Positions 11,811 to 20,330 of a DNA stretch of 20,330 nt are shown in pieces (within the stretch, counting starts at the first letter, position 1; the number at the start of each line of letters is the position of its first letter). The notes beneath the pieces are model-generated. The model did not search any database, was not told the DNA's origin, and was given only the letters and a program-made list of their open reading frames with translations. A program made the position numbers and the translations under genes. This DNA comes from Gammaproteobacteria bacterium (lineage in GTDB: Bacteria; Pseudomonadota; Gammaproteobacteria; Enterobacterales; Psychrobiaceae): positions 2,450 through 22,779 of the forward strand of contig JABSRS010000010.1 of NCBI GenBank assembly GCA_013214885.1, in the 5' to 3' direction.

Positions 11811-11825
11811 TGGAAATAATTATCA
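11811..11825. promoter_or_regulatory. Fur-box-like site upstream of piuC
   Basis: TGGAAAT-A-ATTATCA matches the 7-1-7 Fur consensus TGATAAT-n-ATTATCA at 12 of 14 arm positions. It lies 59 bp upstream of the piuC start. PiuC homologues in E. coli and Pseudomonas are Fur-regulated, which supports the call. Confidence 0.65.
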
Positions 11826-11884: not shown

Positions 11885-12565
11885 ATGTTATTGCACATCC
11901 CTAATGTTTTAACGAAAGCACAAGTTGTAGAGTGTCAAGAGATGCTATTAGGCGCTGATTGGGTCGATGGAAAAACCACCGCGGGTCATTTGGCTCTACA
12001 TAGTAAAAACAATTCACAATTACCACAAGATTCTGAAGTCAGCCGACAAATAGGCGATTTCGTATTGAGCCGCTTGCAACAGCAGTCGCAATTTATGAGT
12101 GCAGCACTACCGAACAAGTTTTATCCGCCAATGTTTAATTGTTATCAAGACGCGGGAAATTTTGGTAATCATATCGACAATGCGATTAGAAGATCCCCCT
12201 TGACCGGTGGTCAAGTGCGCACCGATTTATCGATGACCCTATTTTTAACCGAGCCTGACAGTTACGACGGGGGAGAACTTGTAATTGAAGATACTTACGG
12301 GGAAAAACGAGTTAAGTTACCGGCAGGTGATCTCATTCTCTATCCGTCAACGAGTATGCATCGGGTGACACCCGTCACCCAAGGGCGTCGCTTGGCTTCT
12401 TTTTTTTGGTTGCAAAGTTTAATCCGCAGCGATGAACAACGCCGGACATTATACGAACTTGATCAGAGTATTATGGCGCTAACTCAACAAGACTCACAAC
12501 AAGTTGAATTGATCAGATTGACTGGGGTCTATCACAATTTATTAAGGCAATGGTCTGAAACATAA
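11885..12565 (+). CDS. piuC: PKHD-type Fe(II)/2-oxoglutarate hydroxylase, PiuC/YbiX family
   Basis: This is an iron- and 2-oxoglutarate-dependent dioxygenase of the family found beside Fiu/PiuA siderophore receptors; its substrate is not established. The prolyl-hydroxylase-type fold carries the iron triad His96-x-Asp98 (GNHIDN) and His159 (SMHRVTPV), and Arg169 (GRRLASFFW) for 2-oxoglutarate. The start ATG at 11885 gives 226 residues, the standard family length, beginning MLLHIPNVLT. The frame is open further up to 11804, but the extra 27 residues (rich in I) are not part of the family and overlap the Fur-like site. The receptor gene follows on the same strand after an unusually long 454-bp gap. 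Confidence 0.92.
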   Translation: MLLHIPNVLTKAQVVECQEMLLGADWVDGKTTAGHLALHSKNNSQLPQDSEVSRQIGDFVLSRLQQQSQFMSAALPNKFYPPMFNCYQDAGNFGNHIDNAIRRSPLTGGQVRTDLSMTLFLTEPDSYDGGELVIEDTYGEKRVKLPAGDLILYPSTSMHRVTPVTQGRRLASFFWLQSLIRSDEQRRTLYELDQSIMALTQQDSQQVELIRLTGVYHNLLRQWSET

Positions 12566-13019: not shown

Positions 13020-15257
13020 ATGACTACCTTTACTAAATCTCCTATCAATATTGCAGTGGGGATTGCATTAGTAACCTGCGCTATTAGCGCACAAGCCGCT
13101 GGCTCCATCAAGGAACTAGCCGTTACTAAAGTGCAAGATCAGCAAACTGGCCAATACCATACAGGCAAATACCACGTTGAAAAAGTGGCGACGCATAAAA
13201 TCACCACTGCGTTGGTTGATACCCCTAAAACAGTGACTGTGATTTCAGGAGCTTTACTAGAGGATCAAGGTGTGACGACTATGGCTGAGGCGTTACGTAA
13301 TGTTTCTGGTGTATCGACATTTGGTGCTGGTGAAGGTGGTGGCGGTAATATTACCACCAATGATAAGTTAACTATCCGTGGTTTTAGCGCCAACGAAAGC
13401 ATCTATATCGATGGTATTCGTGATTTATCAAGTTATTCTCGTGATTTATTTAACTATGAACAAATTGAAATCACCAAAGGCGCAAATTCGTCCATTGCTG
13501 GTAAAGGGACCTCTGGCGGCGCAGTCAATTTGGTGACAAAGCGTGCCGACATGGAGATGGGTTTTAGCAAAGCGAAAGTTAGTTTTGATCAAGCACAAAC
13601 CAAGCGTGTGTCTATTGATAGTAACCTAGTATTTAATCAAGATACTGCCTTACGTGTTAATGCAGTAGTGAGTGACGGCGGCGATATCCATGACAATGGC
13701 GTAGAGAATTATAAAACACAAGGGCTGGCTTTCTCATTGCTTCACAACATCTCTGATAAAACCGCTATTAGTGGCGATGTGTTGATTCTCAAGCAAAATA
13801 ACAACCCGATGCTAGGCTTGCCTTGGGTAACTAAGGATGTGGCAGCTGACACCAGCTACACCGAAGGCGCGATCGACAAATCACTATGGGATATATACTA
13901 CGGTGTACCATCGCGTGATTTTGAGAAAACCAATATGACGCTGCTAACATTAAAAGTCGAGCATGAGTTGTCGGATAGTTCACGTTTAGTGAGCAGCACG
14001 CGTTATGTGACTAGTGATAGGCAGTCAACATTGAGCCGCCCATCGTTTTTGTATACGCGTGATGCTGAAACGAGGAAAAAAACTTATTTTGAGCCAGTTC
14101 GTCTTGATTACTTACAAAACACCGATGAAGAGAACGAACTATTGGTGACTCAGCTTGATTTTGTTACTCAGCTCTCACTGGCTGGAATGCAACATGATAT
14201 TGTGGTTGGTGGTGAGATTTACCAAGAAAGCTATAGCTATTATCGTTTTACCGATAACACTGTGTTATCTAGCGCTACAGTAGATTTGTTTAATCCTAAT
14301 CTTAACGTTACCTACACGGGAGCGATAACCCGTTTAGACAAGCCTGCAAAAGTCGAAGGCACCGGAATTGCTATTTATGGATTAGACACCATCCAATTAA
14401 GCGATCACTGGTTAATGACGGCAGGGCTGCGTTTTGAAGATTTTGGCGCTAAGGGATCTTCATATCAAAGAACTGGTGAAAGAGATGCTCACGGCAGCAG
14501 TATTTATGCTTCGGAAGATGGCTTGGACGTTAGTGATAACTTTGTGAGTTACAACATGTCATTAGCCTATAAGCCAAACTATTATACCAACTATTACTTA
14601 GGCTACGCTAACTCACAATCACCGAGTCTTAGTACGCTCAAAGCTTCTCGATATGACTCGAGTAATAAATTAGATCCGGAAGAAGCAACCACGTTAGAGC
14701 TAGGGGCAAAATGGCAGTTAATGGGCGATCGTCTGTTGGTAAATGCCGCGTTATTTGTGACAGAAAAAACAGTTAAAGATCGCAATGATGATCGAGTCTA
14801 TTTCTTAGCTGGTAAGCAGCGAGTCGAAGGATTTGAGCTAAGCATTAATGGTGAAATTAACGATGATTTATCGATTATTGCTTCATATACTCATCAAAAA
14901 TCAGAAGTACTACAGGACTTTAGCCAAGATAGTGTTGGTAATGGTTTAACGTCGACGCCTGAGCATACCGCTAATGTGTGGATTAACTATGCTGCAAGCG
15001 ATAAATTATCACTTGGTGCGGGCGCAAACTATACTTCTGGAGATATTTACTGGCGTAAAAATACGGCTTTCTTCGATACTGGCAGCACGGTATTAATTAA
15101 CGCGATGGCTTCTTATCAAGTGAATGATGCATTGGGATTACAACTTAATATCAATAATCTAACCGATAAAGATTACATTACTGATTACAGCGCTAAGGGG
15201 CATTTCCTACCTGGCGCGCCAAGAAATATTAAACTGGGATTAACCTATCAGTTTTAA
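13020..15257 (+). CDS. TonB-dependent ferric siderophore receptor, Fiu/PiuA type
   Basis: This outer-membrane receptor takes up a ferric siderophore with energy from TonB-ExbBD. The 745 residues begin with a signal peptide (cleavage near SAQA, residue 26) and a possible TonB box (KELAVTKV). The plug domain (about 55-175) contains KTVTVISGALLEDQGVTTMAEALRNVSGVSTF, TIRGFSANESIYIDGIRD and GGAVNLVTKRA. The rest is a 22-strand-type barrel with a typical C-terminal signature ending in Phe (LGLTYQF). The plug resembles E. coli Fiu (GVNTFFAGE..., SIYIDGIRDIGS), a receptor for catecholate monomers, and piuC is the classical Fiu/PiuA neighbour. A catecholate ligand is therefore likely but not proven. 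A bidirectional terminator follows. Confidence 0.95.
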   Translation: MTTFTKSPINIAVGIALVTCAISAQAAGSIKELAVTKVQDQQTGQYHTGKYHVEKVATHKITTALVDTPKTVTVISGALLEDQGVTTMAEALRNVSGVSTFGAGEGGGGNITTNDKLTIRGFSANESIYIDGIRDLSSYSRDLFNYEQIEITKGANSSIAGKGTSGGAVNLVTKRADMEMGFSKAKVSFDQAQTKRVSIDSNLVFNQDTALRVNAVVSDGGDIHDNGVENYKTQGLAFSLLHNISDKTAISGDVLILKQNNNPMLGLPWVTKDVAADTSYTEGAIDKSLWDIYYGVPSRDFEKTNMTLLTLKVEHELSDSSRLVSSTRYVTSDRQSTLSRPSFLYTRDAETRKKTYFEPVRLDYLQNTDEENELLVTQLDFVTQLSLAGMQHDIVVGGEIYQESYSYYRFTDNTVLSSATVDLFNPNLNVTYTGAITRLDKPAKVEGTGIAIYGLDTIQLSDHWLMTAGLRFEDFGAKGSSYQRTGERDAHGSSIYASEDGLDVSDNFVSYNMSLAYKPNYYTNYYLGYANSQSPSLSTLKASRYDSSNKLDPEEATTLELGAKWQLMGDRLLVNAALFVTEKTVKDRNDDRVYFLAGKQRVEGFELSINGEINDDLSIIASYTHQKSEVLQDFSQDSVGNGLTSTPEHTANVWINYAASDKLSLGAGANYTSGDIYWRKNTAFFDTGSTVLINAMASYQVNDALGLQLNINNLTDKDYITDYSAKGHFLPGAPRNIKLGLTYQF

Positions 15258-15414: not shown

Positions 15415-16524
15415 TCAAGTTAATAGTTTATCTTCGGTTATGTCGTTAATAGTTTTAGCCCCACACAGCCCCATGGTGAGTTCAAACTCGTCTTTCAATA
15501 TTTTTAGAGCATGGGCAACGCCCATTGGACCAGCAGTGGCAAGTGCATAAAGCACGACTCGGCCAATTAATACGCTGTTCGCACCTAAGGCGATAGCTTT
15601 GAATATATCACTGCCACGGGTAATGCCGCTATCAAGCATAATACTAAAATCTTGTCCGACAGCTTGACGAATGCTCGGTAGGGCATCGATACTCGATATT
15701 GCACCATCGAGCACCCGACCACCGTGATTTGATACAACTATTGCGCTAGCCCCTATCGCTTTGGCTTTAAGCGCATCTTGTGGGTCGAGTATGCCTTTTA
15801 TTATGACTGGCAAACTGGTGAAATTAATGATTTTCTCAATGAGTTCCCAAGTCGGAGCGCTGTCTTGTAGTCGTGCCAATACTGGGTTCTTATATTGATT
15901 ATAGTCGATGCGATCCTGATTGTTGTTGATTAAATTAACCGCACACACATCACTGGGTAAGCTAAACCCCGCACGTTGCTCACGATTTCTTAAACCATTA
16001 ACGGGAGCGTCAACACTAATCATTAAGGCCTGATAACCATTATGTTGGGCTCGCTCAATTAAGCTTAATGTTTCACGCCAGTCGGTTTGTACGTATAACC
16101 CAAACCATAGCGGACTCGAGGATTGTGACTGTTGATATTGCTGTGCGACGTCCTCAATGCTGGTACTGGCGAGGGTACTTAATACAAATCCAATATCTTG
16201 GGCGCCAGCGGCCATTACCGTGGCAAGTTCACCAAGCGGATTGAGTAACGTCTGATAAGCCATTGGCGCAATTAAGAAAGGATAGGCGAGAGATTGACCA
16301 AGGAGTTCGCTCTCGGTTGTTGCGCCAGTTAAGTCACATAACACGCGTGAGCGTAGTTTTATTGCATCGAAACAGGTGCGATTATCTGCCTTGGTAATTT
16401 CATCGGCCGAGCCGCCATCAATATAGTGCCACACAGCCTCGCTTAAATGCTGCTTAGCGTGACGGCGATAATCACTAGCGGCGGCGATATCATGTGGAAT
16501 GTTTTGTTGATGAGACGTTGGCAT
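15415..16524 (-). CDS. FMN-dependent alpha-hydroxy-acid dehydrogenase/oxidase
   Basis: This cytoplasmic or membrane-associated flavoenzyme belongs to the LldD/glycolate oxidase family, which oxidises L-2-hydroxy acids (lactate, glycolate, mandelate) to keto acids. The 369 residues form a TIM barrel with all usual active-site residues: Tyr34 in HYIDGGSADE, Tyr144 in GLYVQTDW, Lys243 in VIIKGI, His267 and Arg270 in SNHGGRVLDG, and the FMN phosphate site LDSGITRGSD...LIGR. The substrate cannot be read from the sequence. It lies 92 bp after the DUF4198 gene on the same strand and may be read through from that operon, but hairpin-forming repeats lie in the gap. Its place in an iron locus is unexplained. 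Confidence 0.9.
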   Translation of the reverse strand: MPTSHQQNIPHDIAAASDYRRHAKQHLSEAVWHYIDGGSADEITKADNRTCFDAIKLRSRVLCDLTGATTESELLGQSLAYPFLIAPMAYQTLLNPLGELATVMAAGAQDIGFVLSTLASTSIEDVAQQYQQSQSSSPLWFGLYVQTDWRETLSLIERAQHNGYQALMISVDAPVNGLRNREQRAGFSLPSDVCAVNLINNNQDRIDYNQYKNPVLARLQDSAPTWELIEKIINFTSLPVIIKGILDPQDALKAKAIGASAIVVSNHGGRVLDGAISSIDALPSIRQAVGQDFSIMLDSGITRGSDIFKAIALGANSVLIGRVVLYALATAGPMGVAHALKILKDEFELTMGLCGAKTINDITEDKLLT

Positions 16525-16616: not shown

Positions 16617-17444
16617 TTATTCGTAGGAAATTTCAAATGAATAAAATAGGCGGTAACCCATTTCATCATATAACTTAGCGTTTTGTTTTTCGCTATGCTT
16701 AACACTTAAGGTGAATAAACCACCTTGATCAAATTGATAACTTAATTGTCCGTTGGCATCGGTAACACTTTCGCTCGGCTTATTTGAAGCGAGATACTGC
16801 GCGCCGCTGCGTTGTAATTTTGCCGTAGCGTTGCGTAATGGTTGACCATTTAAATACAATTTCATAGTAATGACATCATTGGTGACATAATCAGATGGAT
16901 GAGTCACAGGGACAAGTTCTAACCCTTTACCTGTTGGCTTGAAATCCTGTTTAGATGGTCGGATATTGGTAATAAAGGCAATGGCGGTTGTTACCGATTT
17001 CTTGGTTACCACATTTTTTGCAGAATTTGGTAACTCACTTTGGGCGTCGCTCTTGTTTAATCGCAAGCGTTTCTTTTTCGCTTGAGATCCCACAGTGTAG
17101 CTGGTGGTATAACGAGGTTGGTTTTGGTAAGTAACCGTATAAGTACCTTGTTCGCTAATGGCAAGATCAAGGGTTGTTCGTTGCGCACTTTGGTAAATAT
17201 TACCCAAGTACCGCAGTGTTTTTCCTTGTGGGTCAATGACGCTTAAGCCGGCCGCTGACACGCTGTGATCCAAACGAAAAGGGGTTTCGCTAAAGCTTAA
17301 ATCAACCGTTACCGTGGTTGGTCTTTTACTATTAATGTTAAATTGGCTCGGCCACATATTTAAACCATGAGCAAGTGCTTGGCTTGCCAGTAATGTTGAG
17401 GCGAGTGTTAATGAGCTCAACGTCATTTTTGTCAATGTATTCAT
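16617..17444 (-). CDS. Periplasmic DUF4198-family protein
   Basis: The 275-residue protein has a signal peptide ending ASQALA before HG (residue 25). The mature protein is beta-rich in two parts: residues 30-120 (Ig-like, ending GTYTVTYQNQPRYTTSYTVG) and 155-275 (TGKGLELVPVTHPSDYVTNDVITMKLYLNGQPL, then DANGQLSYQFDQGGLFTLSV). They are joined by a very basic linker (AKKKRLRLNK). LELVPVTHP plus the Gly-rich end is typical of DUF4198, proteins often found near metal-uptake genes. Its ATG overlaps the DUF2271 stop (TAATG), so translation is probably coupled. It may bind metal or a siderophore, or stabilise the PepSY membrane protein; this is inferred from context. Confidence 0.85.
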   Translation of the reverse strand: MNTLTKMTLSSLTLASTLLASQALAHGLNMWPSQFNINSKRPTTVTVDLSFSETPFRLDHSVSAAGLSVIDPQGKTLRYLGNIYQSAQRTTLDLAISEQGTYTVTYQNQPRYTTSYTVGSQAKKKRLRLNKSDAQSELPNSAKNVVTKKSVTTAIAFITNIRPSKQDFKPTGKGLELVPVTHPSDYVTNDVITMKLYLNGQPLRNATAKLQRSGAQYLASNKPSESVTDANGQLSYQFDQGGLFTLSVKHSEKQNAKLYDEMGYRLFYSFEISYE

Positions 17445-17923
17445 TACTTATTTACCTTGATAGTGATGGCGCCGATTTCGTCGCTTGGCGCGATGCTGTA
17501 TTGTTGGTGATCATTTAAGTTAATCTTTTGACGAACCAGTGAACGACCGCCTTTTTGGCGTACCACTTCAATCATTAGGGTGAAGTCATTTAAGTCCGCA
17601 ATATCTAATTGCACCTGATGCTGACCAGCCATGTGGGTCGCGCCAGTGATACCATCAAACTGATTGTCGCTATAACGACCTTCCTTGCGCCACCAACGGC
17701 GAATGTCGACTAACCATTTATCGTTATCACGTTTTATTAAATGCCACAATAATAAATTCTTACTATCTCCTTTGGTTTCTGCCCACATTGCGACGTAAGG
17801 CTTGCGGTAGTCCTGCTGATCAAACTTAGGTAGTGAAAAGTCGACCGTTAACGTAACTGCTGGTGATAGTGTGCTAAATAGCATACTCATCACTGCTAAG
17901 GTGATATAAATACTCTTTTTCAT
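17444..17923 (-). CDS. Periplasmic DUF2271-family protein
   Basis: The 159-residue protein carries a signal peptide (cleavage around residue 22, SPAVT). The mature part shows the DUF2271 hallmarks PYVAMWAET, LLLWHLIKRDNDKWLVDIRRWWR and FDGITGATHMAGQHQVQLD. The family is of unknown function but often occurs with PepSY membrane proteins and flavin/iron genes. It starts 20 bp after the PepSY-TM gene and shares one base with DUF4198, forming a tight three-gene operon. A periplasmic partner in electron transfer or iron release is the working guess. Confidence 0.85.
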   Translation of the reverse strand: MKKSIYITLAVMSMLFSTLSPAVTLTVDFSLPKFDQQDYRKPYVAMWAETKGDSKNLLLWHLIKRDNDKWLVDIRRWWRKEGRYSDNQFDGITGATHMAGQHQVQLDIADLNDFTLMIEVVRQKGGRSLVRQKINLNDHQQYSIAPSDEIGAITIKVNK

Positions 17924-17943
17924 GTTGTCCTCTTTGGTGGGGG

Positions 17944-18564
17944 TTAGTGCATTAAATACAGCACTAATAAAAATAAACTGCTACCAGCGATGAGCCAATG
18001 GCTGCTTGCTCGGCGGGTCTTCTTATTAATTAGCGCGAGCCACAATCCGCTGAGGCAAAAAATAATCATCACGATGGCGCTGGCATCTGAGACGTAGCGC
18101 CATAGCGTGGTGGTGTGCTTTGAGCGATGAATGTTATTAAGTGTATCGAGCAGTCCAAAAGGACTTTGGTGAATCTCGATACGTTGCTCTTGGCTAAAAA
18201 ACTCAATCAGGGTGTGGCTACCTGGGCTTTGTAAGGTAACGATTAATAATTGATCGTAATCGTCCCATTCAAACTCATAATCGACACCGCGTATGTCATG
18301 CGTGTTGTCGAGCCATAACATCAGGTTTAGACCGTTGTACGCGTAGTTTTCTGCCCAATCTGGGCGTTGGTTTAGCCATGATGGTGACTCTATCGTGATG
18401 CTGGTGGATGCTGTATCGCCATCGCTCAAGTCTGGGTGATTCAGAAAAAAACCTGAAATCGCGAAAAACAACATCAGTAACATGACCAGCATCGCGCTAA
18501 AGACATGTATGTCACGCGCCAACGCGTTATATGAAATATTGCGTTTTAATTTTAAAAATCCCAT
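17944..18564 (-). CDS. PepSY-associated transmembrane protein, candidate heme electron carrier
   Basis: The 206-residue inner-membrane protein has helices at about 21-41 (FSAMLVMLLMLFFAISGFFL), 162-180 and 188-205, with a ~115-residue periplasmic part between the first two (FGLLDTLNNIHRSKHTTTLWRYVSD ends it). ARDIHVFSA before helix 1 and NIHRSKH before helix 2 carry the conserved His of PepSY-TM proteins; in the ferric-siderophore reductase FoxB such His bind heme. The protein is much shorter than FoxB-like reductases and has no flavin domain. It is first in the operon with DUF2271 and DUF4198, and divergent from the flavoprotein across a Fur-like site. A heme relay to the periplasm is inferred. 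Confidence 0.82.
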   Translation of the reverse strand: MGFLKLKRNISYNALARDIHVFSAMLVMLLMLFFAISGFFLNHPDLSDGDTASTSITIESPSWLNQRPDWAENYAYNGLNLMLWLDNTHDIRGVDYEFEWDDYDQLLIVTLQSPGSHTLIEFFSQEQRIEIHQSPFGLLDTLNNIHRSKHTTTLWRYVSDASAIVMIIFCLSGLWLALINKKTRRASSHWLIAGSSLFLLVLYLMH

Positions 18565-18615
18565 TAGCCATTCGATTACTGCATAATTTGAACGCCCATA
18601 TAGTACTAGTGTTAA

Positions 18616-18627
18616 GCATTTAAATGC
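18616..18627. repeat. 12-bp palindrome in the divergent promoter
   Basis: GCATTTAAATGC is a perfect palindrome centred about 22 bp from the Fur-like site, inside the 110-bp gap between the divergent genes. It could be a second operator; I cannot assign a regulator. Confidence 0.35.
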
Positions 18628-18636
18628 AATACTATA

Positions 18637-18651
18637 TGATAATAATTTTCA
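18637..18651. promoter_or_regulatory. Fur-box-like site in the divergent PepSY-TM / flavoprotein promoter
   Basis: TGATAAT-A-ATTTTCA matches the 7-1-7 Fur consensus at 13 of 14 arm positions. It lies 23 bp before the flavoprotein ATG and 72 bp before the PepSY-TM ATG. TATGAT (18635-18640) is a possible -10 for the flavoprotein. One site could repress both transcripts. Confidence 0.75.
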
Positions 18652-18674
18652 TTTAGATTTAGATTTGTAATTTA

Positions 18675-20330
18675 ATGGTCATCGCGCTGCAAAACATCTA
18701 CCACGCTCAACTTGGTCGCGTATTGTCTTATACGTTGTCACGGCTGTTGCTGATAATCGCTGTTATTGGTGCTGCTTTGTGGCTTTTTGTTGTTGGCTTG
18801 TCACTGGAGTTACCAGGGTTAAACGGCGAAGTATTTATTCATGTGGTTGAGGGGGAACATCATGGTGCGACCCTTGGTGTTTTTGCATCAGCCGATTACC
18901 GTTTAACTCAGGCTCTAATAGTTTTCTCGTCACTTGAGTCCAATGTCCTTGGTGGCTTATTAACGGCTTGGCGTTACGGTATTGCGATTCTTATTGGCAT
19001 TGTTGGCTTGATGTTATTGCTTAGGATTCACCGCTTGGCACTGTTAATTTTATTAATCATGCTGAGTAGCGGCGCAGTGTTAAACGAGACATCTCTGACG
19101 TTATCTGTTTTGTCATTGTTTTGCTCGGGGCTCTATCTGCTGTTACTGATTGGTTTTAGCAATGCTGTTGGTATTAAATTTAACGCCGATGTGCCAAAAG
19201 AGCAAAAATCGTCGTTGATTGCTTACGCTAGTCAAAGTGGTACGGCGCAAGGGCTGGCGCAACAGATCGCCAAGATCTCTAGTCAATATTGCGATATTAA
19301 AGCGTTTTCAGAACTGACACCCAACTGTTTACAGCGCTATCAACAGCTATTTGTGGTGGCATCAACTTATGGCGATGGACAAGCGCCAGAGAAATCTCAT
19401 GGCTTTGTTGAAGCGCTAGCGCAATGTGAACAGGCACTGCCTAATTTACATTTTGCGGTGCTAGCGTTAGGCGATAGTACTTACCCTAAGTTTTGTGCCT
19501 TCGGTCATCAATTAGCGGCGATGTTACGTGATAAAGGGGCGCAAGCGTTATACCCTGTTCACGAAATAGACCGTGGCCATATTGCCTCAGTGAGCCAGTG
19601 GTGGAGTCAAGTGTGTCAGGGGCTTGGTTGGCATAGCGAGCTGATGCATCAGCAATGGTTAACCGCTACAATTATAGACAATCAATGCTTAAATCCATCT
19701 CAGGAACGGCGGATGGCGCATTTGATAACGCTTCGAGTTACAGGGGCGCGTTATCAAGCGGGGGATTTGTTAGAAGTGCTAACGCCACTGAAACGCAGTG
19801 TTATTGAACTAAAATTGACGGCTCTAGGACTTAATCCGAATTGCAGGGTTAACTTAGGCGAGCAAGTCATCAGCTTGATTGATGCATTAACGCAATTGGA
19901 GTGGCAGCAACAAACGGCCAGTCAGGCGCAGGCGTTAGTTGATCAGCTATCTGTGTTACGCCCCAGAGTATACTCAATTGCCAGTAAGCCTGATGATCCC
20001 GTGATCGCGTTATTTGTTCGTCGGTTAGTTAAGGATGACGGGGAGCTCGGTTTTAGTTCAGCACGACTGTGCGCCAGCCAAACGGATCATGAATTTAAAG
20101 TATCGTTACGCCGCCACGATAGTTTTAGGCCGCCGCTAAACAATGTACCAATGATACTTATTTGCGCCGGTACTGGTATTGCACCATTCATGAGCTTTCT
20201 TGCCCAGCGGCAACAACTATCTTTTGATGCCCCGATTTGGCTGATATTTGGCGAGCAATACCAAGACAGCGGTTGCTATTTTAAACAGCAGCTCGACGCA
20301 TATCAACGAGCCGGTATATTAACGGAGTTG
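18675..20330 (+). CDS. Membrane-anchored flavodoxin / ferredoxin-NADP reductase fusion, 3'-truncated by the window
   Basis: The frame is open from ATG 18675 to the last base (552 codons) and the gene continues beyond. The N-terminus has about four membrane helices (21-41, 101-116, 119-135, 141-161). A flavodoxin-type FMN domain follows: AYASQSGTAQGLA (183-195), ASTYGDGQAP (229-238) and LALGDSTYPKFCAFG (263-277). Then comes a CysJ-like reductase with the FAD motif RVYSIAS (431-437), GFSSARLC, and the NAD(P)H motif CAGTGIAPFMSFL (497-509). The order FMN-FAD-NAD(P)H matches sulfite reductase flavoprotein and cytochrome P450 reductase. The membrane helices and Fur-like promoter suggest it feeds electrons to a membrane carrier for iron reduction rather than to sulfite reductase. 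The short upstream region has no clear ribosome site, so the exact start is less certain. Confidence 0.9.
   Translation, partial: MVIALQNIYHAQLGRVLSYTLSRLLLIIAVIGAALWLFVVGLSLELPGLNGEVFIHVVEGEHHGATLGVFASADYRLTQALIVFSSLESNVLGGLLTAWRYGIAILIGIVGLMLLLRIHRLALLILLIMLSSGAVLNETSLTLSVLSLFCSGLYLLLLIGFSNAVGIKFNADVPKEQKSSLIAYASQSGTAQGLAQQIAKISSQYCDIKAFSELTPNCLQRYQQLFVVASTYGDGQAPEKSHGFVEALAQCEQALPNLHFAVLALGDSTYPKFCAFGHQLAAMLRDKGAQALYPVHEIDRGHIASVSQWWSQVCQGLGWHSELMHQQWLTATIIDNQCLNPSQERRMAHLITLRVTGARYQAGDLLEVLTPLKRSVIELKLTALGLNPNCRVNLGEQVISLIDALTQLEWQQQTASQAQALVDQLSVLRPRVYSIASKPDDPVIALFVRRLVKDDGELGFSSARLCASQTDHEFKVSLRRHDSFRPPLNNVPMILICAGTGIAPFMSFLAQRQQLSFDAPIWLIFGEQYQDSGCYFKQQLDAYQRAGILTEL

Follow-up and report, generated by a model that had tools for sequence, protein, structure and literature searches.

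A separately encoded diflavin reductase beside a PepSY, DUF2271 and DUF4198 cassette: a candidate system for freeing siderophore iron

How might electrons reach the iron of an imported siderophore when the membrane part and the flavin part of the reductase are separate proteins? The question is raised by a 20,330-nucleotide stretch of DNA (the window) from a gammaproteobacterium of the family Psychrobiaceae (contig JABSRS010000010.1, positions 2,450 to 22,779). At its far end, a half-size PepSY membrane protein and two exported proteins, of the families DUF2271 and DUF4198, are encoded opposite a membrane-anchored flavoprotein. These genes of a marine host most likely carry electrons of reduced nicotinamide adenine dinucleotide phosphate (NADPH) across the inner membrane and free iron from imported siderophores. 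The core module has been known since 2021 and earlier. Distinctive here are the variant with a separate reductase and, in many relatives, a longer operon that includes a metal importer. The central features are as follows.

17944–18564, minus strand: PF16357 (PepSY_TM_like_2) protein, half-size and cytochrome-like, 206 amino acids (aa); Pfam, 107.2 bits
17444–17923, minus strand: DUF2271 (PF10029) protein, predicted carrier of covalent flavin mononucleotide (FMN); Pfam, export judged by eye from a signal-peptide-like N-terminus
17636–17656, minus strand: flavinylation motif D90-G-I-T-G-A-T96 of DUF2271, FMN predicted on T96
16617–17444, minus strand: DUF4198 (PF10670) protein, exported; Pfam, metal site known in a homologue
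18675–20330, plus strand: membrane-anchored diflavin reductase with a four-helix anchor, a flavodoxin domain and flavin adenine dinucleotide (FAD)/NAD(P)H domains; Pfam, full-length relative L014, model
18637–18651, plus strand: Fur-like site TGATAATAATTTTCA, 13/14 match, in the divergent PepSY/flavoprotein promoter region

The cassette and its components

The three minus-strand genes (the trio) are closely packed: 20 base pairs (bp) separate PepSY from DUF2271, which in turn shares a single base with DUF4198. The flavoprotein gene is divergent and 3'-truncated, because the window stops at the contig end (G000:C2:22779). Pfam upholds the domains and positions given in the initial annotation for this tight operon and for the divergent gene of the flavodoxin–ferredoxin-NADP reductase (FNR) type. 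An identical layout is found in a Psychrobium metagenome-assembled genome (L014), where the PepSY protein is 86% identical and the flavoprotein has 631 aa.

In the short PepSY proteins, H20 (codon 18505–18507) and H146 (codon 18127–18129) are invariant (40/40). Histidines had been placed near the helices of this protein; they are present, and just these two are invariant, H43 occurring in 20 and H150 in 10 of the 40. The model has three membrane-type helices. FoxB/FpvG-type reductases are defined by two PepSY domains, four helices and two histidine pairs, which a chain of 206 aa with three helices and two invariant histidines does not possess. With the short model, Foldseek gave no PDB match at E ≤ 0.001, and VIA-align ranked FoxB only 40th, beneath unrelated folds. 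The short PepSY profile does match the first half of fused PepSY-flavodoxin-FNR proteins, which we take to be of the PA4513 type, with a probability of 94.5 and an alignment spanning both histidines. At this locus the same parts occupy two genes, not a single chain.

The flavoprotein supplies the remaining parts. Flavodoxin_1 and NAD_binding_1 exceed their Pfam cut-offs, and FAD_binding_1 falls slightly under (29.5 versus 32.3 bits). In the model of the L014 protein, a helical anchor of roughly 170 residues, which includes a small region of strands, precedes a diflavin reductase of the CysJ/cytochrome P450 reductase type, as judged by fold matches. All three domains of that type (flavodoxin, FAD and NAD(P)) are found, the fold being seen on the full-length relative. 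Among the matches listed, the flavodoxin-FNR part is 38–42% identical to several fused relatives. Two candidate roles for the anchor were rejected. No histidine is conserved among 35 close relatives, which rules out a heme site, and a degenerate PepSY domain is ruled out by profile probabilities of 0.22 and 0.37 percent (the match of fused to short PepSY, 94.5, served as positive control). With neither conserved histidine nor detectable PepSY similarity in the anchor, the heme must come from a partner. PepSY adjoins the flavoprotein in all five loci of the genus. Among eight genomes of the genus in the order sample, each of the five that have DUF2271 encodes the split flavoprotein opposite PepSY; the three without DUF2271 give weak flavoprotein matches only (best E 1.3e-15 to 7e-15 among the matches listed). 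In a broader set of database proteins, seven close relatives of PepSY and of the flavoprotein agree in the length of their longest contig, which suggests the same pairing but does not prove it.

The DUF2271 protein contains the sequence DGITGAT, in which T93 to T96 form the flavinylation motif [S/T]GA[S/T]. This mark of a covalent FMN carrier was missed in the initial annotation. A motif of the form [ST][GS]A[ST], preceded by an acidic residue or glutamine, occurs in 40 of the 42 DUF2271 members collected; of the other two, L018 is a fragment and L017 (G012) reads TGPT, so that the latter is perhaps not flavinylated. Flavinylation by ApbE has been shown for an A. ursilacus homologue and is lost when the motif threonine is changed (PMC8238504; here and below, papers are cited for the portions of their text available to us). 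One ApbE match is present in the window genome, on contig C555, in a lipoprotein-like frame behind nqr-like genes (frame and neighbours by eye). ApbE, a frequent but not universal member of such clusters, was not found in the window, whose contig ends just past the cassette, nor near the L014 cassette.

DUF2271 also occurs in other company. It adjoins a Ferric_reduct/FAD membrane protein that replaces PepSY in L155 (6633–8431) and a fused PepSY-flavodoxin-FNR protein in L157. A row of DUF4198, a second protein and a DUF2271-ApbE fusion is present in L154 (6147–12124), L156 (5653–11268) and L192, the fusion being shown by Pfam in L154. The second protein is an EF-hand protein in L154, and a protein of about 800 aa is also present in L154 and L156. 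As DUF2271 is found beside PepSY, fused PepSY or a ferric-reductase-type protein, or fused to ApbE, its membrane donor looks interchangeable.

For DUF4198, the mature N-terminus is predicted by eye at H26 (codon 17367–17369). The A|H junction falls at the expected signal-peptide cut in 37/37 aligned DUF2271-linked members and in 40/40 of the neighbourhood set, the cuts being placed by visual inspection and with a loose pattern. The window protein lacks the histidines found at positions 34 and 53 in 27/37 and 20/37 relatives. In a crystal structure of a DUF4198 protein, nickel is bound via the N-terminal histidine and His18 (PMC12537917). This protein, IsDUF4198 (PDB 9GCB, PMC12537917), and that of the window have the mature N-terminal histidine in common; the second ligand, His18, was not matched, as the sequence search did not return 9GCB. 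The hits of that search, 9mhi–9mho (profile match 8.7e-17), are DUF4198-like chains that carry the label phosphoribosylglycinamide formyltransferase. In L146 (6447–6989) and L147 (7963–8502), a manganese efflux pump gene stands at the place of the absent DUF4198 (Mntp by Pfam in L146, by eye in L147).

The Fur-like site between the divergent genes, claimed earlier as a 13/14 match, holds up: with up to one mismatch allowed, chance predicts 0.02 matches for the window, and 2/100 shuffles contain one. At no more than two mismatches 0.16 are expected and two are seen, again reached by 2/100 shuffles. The promoter core surrounding the site is conserved in the aligned intergenic regions of the five genus loci, with best scores of 13, 13, 12, 10 and 10 of 14. 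Scores of 10/14, as found for L146, L149 and the copy on contig C576, are not above chance (P 0.19, 0.33 and 0.28). More widely, Fur-like sites of at least 12/14 lie close to the start of 15/39 PepSY genes (simple consensus, without shuffle control). A Zur control over the same 39 promoter stretches reached a top score of 11/14.

Further features lie next to the cassette.

15415–16524, minus strand: gene resembling FMN-dependent hydroxyacid dehydrogenases, 92 bp past the end of DUF4198
13020–15257, plus strand: TonB-dependent siderophore receptor, above the TIGR01783 cut-off; top score Fiu, under the Fiu model cut-off
11885–12565, plus strand: PiuC/YbiX-like Fe(II) dioxygenase, by domain/profile match
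11811–11825, plus strand: another Fur-like site (12/14), ahead of the PiuC-like start

The PiuC-like start is set to the beginning of the NCBIfam match, which lies 27 codons into the TTG frame as listed. Profile matches confirm that PiuC-like and siderophore receptor genes lie next door, as had been noted. The dehydrogenase-like gene probably belongs to the trio operon; such a gene also stands 3' of the trio in L148 and closes the C576 cluster.

Distribution and the longer operon

The initial annotation had proposed to score the co-occurrence of four families, the flavoprotein included. For the three families of the trio it is non-random across 148 genomes of the order. Counting matches over cut-off, DUF2271 is present in 41, PF16357 in 45 and DUF4198 in 48, with each pair in 37 (pairwise Fisher p 1.5e-22, 1.4e-20 and 2e-17, kinship uncorrected). 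Both partners lie within 1.5 kilobases on the same strand at 36/47 DUF2271 loci. The eleven exceptions include G182 (C7) and G202 (C79) of the genus, where PepSY, DUF2271 and the flavoprotein are together and DUF4198 is absent. PepSY and the flavoprotein occupy one site, and DUF2271 and DUF4198 another, in G247 and G261. A class-level sample was too thin (3/143 over cut-off).

All 36 trio loci of the order were examined with their neighbourhoods, the PepSY gene of C576 lying outside the scored stretch. In 22 of them, from six GTDB families (f144 8, f153 6, f162 3, f154 3, f148 1, and f1 1, the window genome's C576), a longer operon starts with the trio. On the same strand, with gaps of at most 206 bp, the trio is followed by a NikL-like gene, a protein of about 200 aa, ZnuA, an ATP-binding cassette (ABC) ATPase, an ABC-3 permease and a further protein. 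At a 23rd locus, L149, the contig ends after the NikL-like gene. Neighbours were labelled by single-sequence or small-profile searches, keeping the best label; the ApbE-DUF2271 fusion of L154 thus counts as DUF2271, and L182 has a DUF2271 frame that escaped the labelling. The NikL-like protein, of about 100 aa, is under the model cut-off in 4/4 tested; the A|H junction and a pair of invariant cysteines are present in 23/23. The protein of about 200 aa is DUF6162 in 6/7 tested, the C576 protein being the other; one DUF6162 relative is from Vibrio campbellii and two are from Psychromonas. Two of the proteins encoded last were tested, and both resemble ZnuA weakly, the one of C576 above cut-off and the one of L174 just under. 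Fur-like sites of at least 12/14 lie near 10/21 PepSY genes heading the longer operon. This operon suggests an inner-membrane route for reductively released iron in cassette-bearing bacteria. The combination of trio, NikL-like, DUF6162 and ZnuA/ABC-3 genes was not found in searches of the text of open-licence papers.

The window genome has three copies of the trio: that of the window, one on C576 with the importer, and one on C179. In the C576 copy (L160/L007) the PepSY frame and the divergent flavoprotein pieces are broken. After the trio come genes for NikL-like and ZnuA proteins, an ABC ATPase and an ABC-3 permease, and then one for an FMN dehydrogenase that shares 48% identity with that of the window across 124 aa. 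The C179 copy (L008, 5544–7462) stands behind TonB receptor, ExbB, ExbD, TonB and tetratricopeptide repeat genes, assigned by eye, and its DUF2271 motif reads TSAT. Across nine genomes of the genus the operon-type permease is found only in C576; other permease matches (G000, G220, G280) are 26–29% identical, and six of the genomes have none. Hand-off to an ABC importer is therefore not general in the genus.

FeoB was found in none of these nine genomes, six of which are at least 90% complete, and in at least 99/148 genomes of the order among the matches listed. The trio is not a general replacement for FeoB: outside the genus, at least 32 of the 36 DUF2271 genomes have it, those without it among the matches listed being G166, G226, G251 and G262. 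In this FeoB-less genus the system may have been broken into dispersed cassettes and may have acquired its own diflavin reductase.

Proposed electron line and alternatives

Genes, motifs, conservation, co-location and promoter footprint are observed directly. DUF2271 flavinylation, Fur control and metal (nickel) binding by DUF4198 have been demonstrated by others in homologues only and would apply here by analogy. On this basis we think it probable that the genes form a Fur-controlled electron line from NADPH through FAD, FMN, heme and covalent FMN to a ferric siderophore, which is reduced in the periplasm. (i) Electrons would pass from NADPH, the presumed donor, to FAD and FMN within the membrane-anchored diflavin reductase. 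(ii) The flavodoxin domain would dock on the half-size PepSY protein. (iii) A putative heme of this protein would be ligated by H20, at the cytosolic end of helix 1, and H146, on the periplasmic side. (iv) The protein is probably a homodimer, equivalent to one two-heme FoxB. (v) Electrons would then move to FMN held covalently on T96 of the exported DUF2271, attached in trans by the sole ApbE of the genome. (vi) From this FMN they would reach the ferric siderophore imported by the neighbouring receptor, the direction of each step being likewise presumed. (vii) Fe(II) may be captured by the N-terminal histidine of DUF4198. (viii) DUF4198 may finally pass it to a metal importer, which is encoded in the same operon in many relatives. 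The path drawn in the initial annotation survives in outline, as an iron-linked, transmembrane path with separate membrane and flavin parts and two exported partners; the covalent FMN step and the link to an importer had escaped it. The roles of DUF2271 and DUF4198 become testable as successive steps, electron delivery by bound flavin and then capture of reduced metal by the N-terminal histidine. A joint reading of DUF4198 as metal acceptor behind DUF2271 was likewise not found in the same searches.

The trio might instead be fed from the quinone pool, the divergent flavoprotein being a neighbour with a different acceptor. A flavodoxin-FNR reductase is recognised in only 3/34 stretches with the whole trio (the window, L148 and L149, all of the window genus), and VciB of Vibrio cholerae is said to be tied to the electron transport chain and to receive quinone-pool electrons. 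We nevertheless consider this source unlikely: PepSY and the split flavoprotein are adjacent at five genus loci and recur as a DUF2271-less pair in G247 and G261, and the fused PepSY-flavodoxin-FNR form exists. In another alternative, the PepSY protein is a siderophore permease and no electron carrier. Such a role has been proposed for Alteromonas PepSY proteins of four to eight helices (PMC7190382). The model with only three membrane-type helices, the invariant histidine pair and the precedent of FoxB for reduction make it very improbable here.

The metal itself has also to be weighed. Two observations count against the electron line as proposed. Three genomes have the split module without a linked permease, which slightly lowers the odds of the mechanism, and the ZnuA-like proteins of the longer operon carry seven invariant histidines in 22/22, which tells against a role in iron alone. 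Their H65, H127 and H193 presumably correspond to zinc-type ligand positions. These histidines, the nickel bound by the solved DUF4198 and the NikL-like partner, under its model cut-off though it is, would suit a module for nickel, zinc, manganese or copper instead of iron, and a further PepSY_TM protein, CrpH, works in copper respiration (PMC13038864). Such a module is nonetheless doubtful, since Fur-like sites reach at least 12/14 at 15 of the PepSY genes and Zur-like ones never exceed 11/14, the neighbours are a siderophore receptor and a PiuC-like gene, and homologues are iron-regulated in Shewanella, Caulobacter and Alteromonas.

Relation to known systems

The initial annotation took the division of labour and the roles of the DUF proteins to be undescribed, but they had already been published, as the available portions of three papers show (PMC8238504, PMC3751524, PMC12537917). 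Meheust and co-workers described in 2021 clusters of PepSY, DUF2271 and DUF4198 genes with flavinylation of DUF2271 by ApbE, and argued for iron reduction (PMC8238504). The window shares with these PepSY-like flavinylation systems a PF16357/PF03929 protein, here PF16357, adjoining DUF2271, the DUF2271 motif, DUF4198 and the iron context (PMC8238504). It differs in having the NAD(P)H part on a membrane flavoprotein of its own, transcribed divergently, and the sole ApbE found elsewhere in the genome. The main text of PMC8238504, its gene-cluster table lying outside the scope, does not contain 'ABC transporter', 'zinc', PF01297 or PF00950 in the portions available, and the available text of PMC12537917 makes no mention of DUF2271, PepSY, flavin or siderophore.

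In Caulobacter, Fur binds the promoter of CC_3059–3063, and transposon insertions there reduce fitness in ethylenediaminetetraacetic acid (PMC3751524, PMC11870441). According to the same excerpts the genes are of the same kinds: a transporter/PepSY protein, DUF2271, DUF4198, ApbE and a separate flavoprotein of the sulfite reductase type. The Caulobacter genes form one operon that includes apbE, whereas the window genes are arranged divergently, show no apbE among them and are followed by a dehydrogenase-like gene. In Shewanella oneidensis, SO_1188–1190 begin with a PepSY inner-membrane protein, are iron-responsive and have a Fur motif; SO1190 is annotated as the periplasmic component of a cobalt transporter (PMC2667191, PMC12442407, available portions). 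By analogy, SO_1189 and SO_1190 would be DUF2271 and DUF4198 proteins.

Fused PepSY-flavodoxin-FNR proteins have the same three functions, which are here split between two proteins. VciB (COG3295) of V. cholerae reportedly has three helices and two essential histidines and forms a dimer. The three helices and two invariant histidines of the window PepSY protein would fit the first two of these traits, compared by description. VciB, which is named in PMC8238504 and PMC11870441, is likewise a small PepSY-like inner-membrane iron reductase by description; the available portions of PMC8238504 report no flavinylated partner for it. The PepSY proteins compared in the accessible part of PMC13038864 have at least four helices.

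The fpvGHJKCDEF genes of P. aeruginosa resemble the longer operon in kind. FpvG is the reductase of that system, FpvC its ferrous-iron-binding protein and FpvDE the putative importer (PMC6954188). The window locus, without an importer, does not bring together a reductase, two binding proteins and an ABC importer as that system does. The longer operon provides a non-pyoverdine comparison for the Fpv machinery, in which the exact roles of FpvH, FpvJ and FpvK are described as open in the available text (PMC6954188). The kinds of genes in common are those for an inner-membrane reductase, small membrane and periplasmic proteins, two binding proteins and an ABC transporter, which in the Fpv system serves iron that reduction has released in the periplasm. 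Compared by gene kind, FpvG is a full-size reductase, whereas the longer operon of the relatives has a half-size PepSY protein with DUF2271 and DUF4198.

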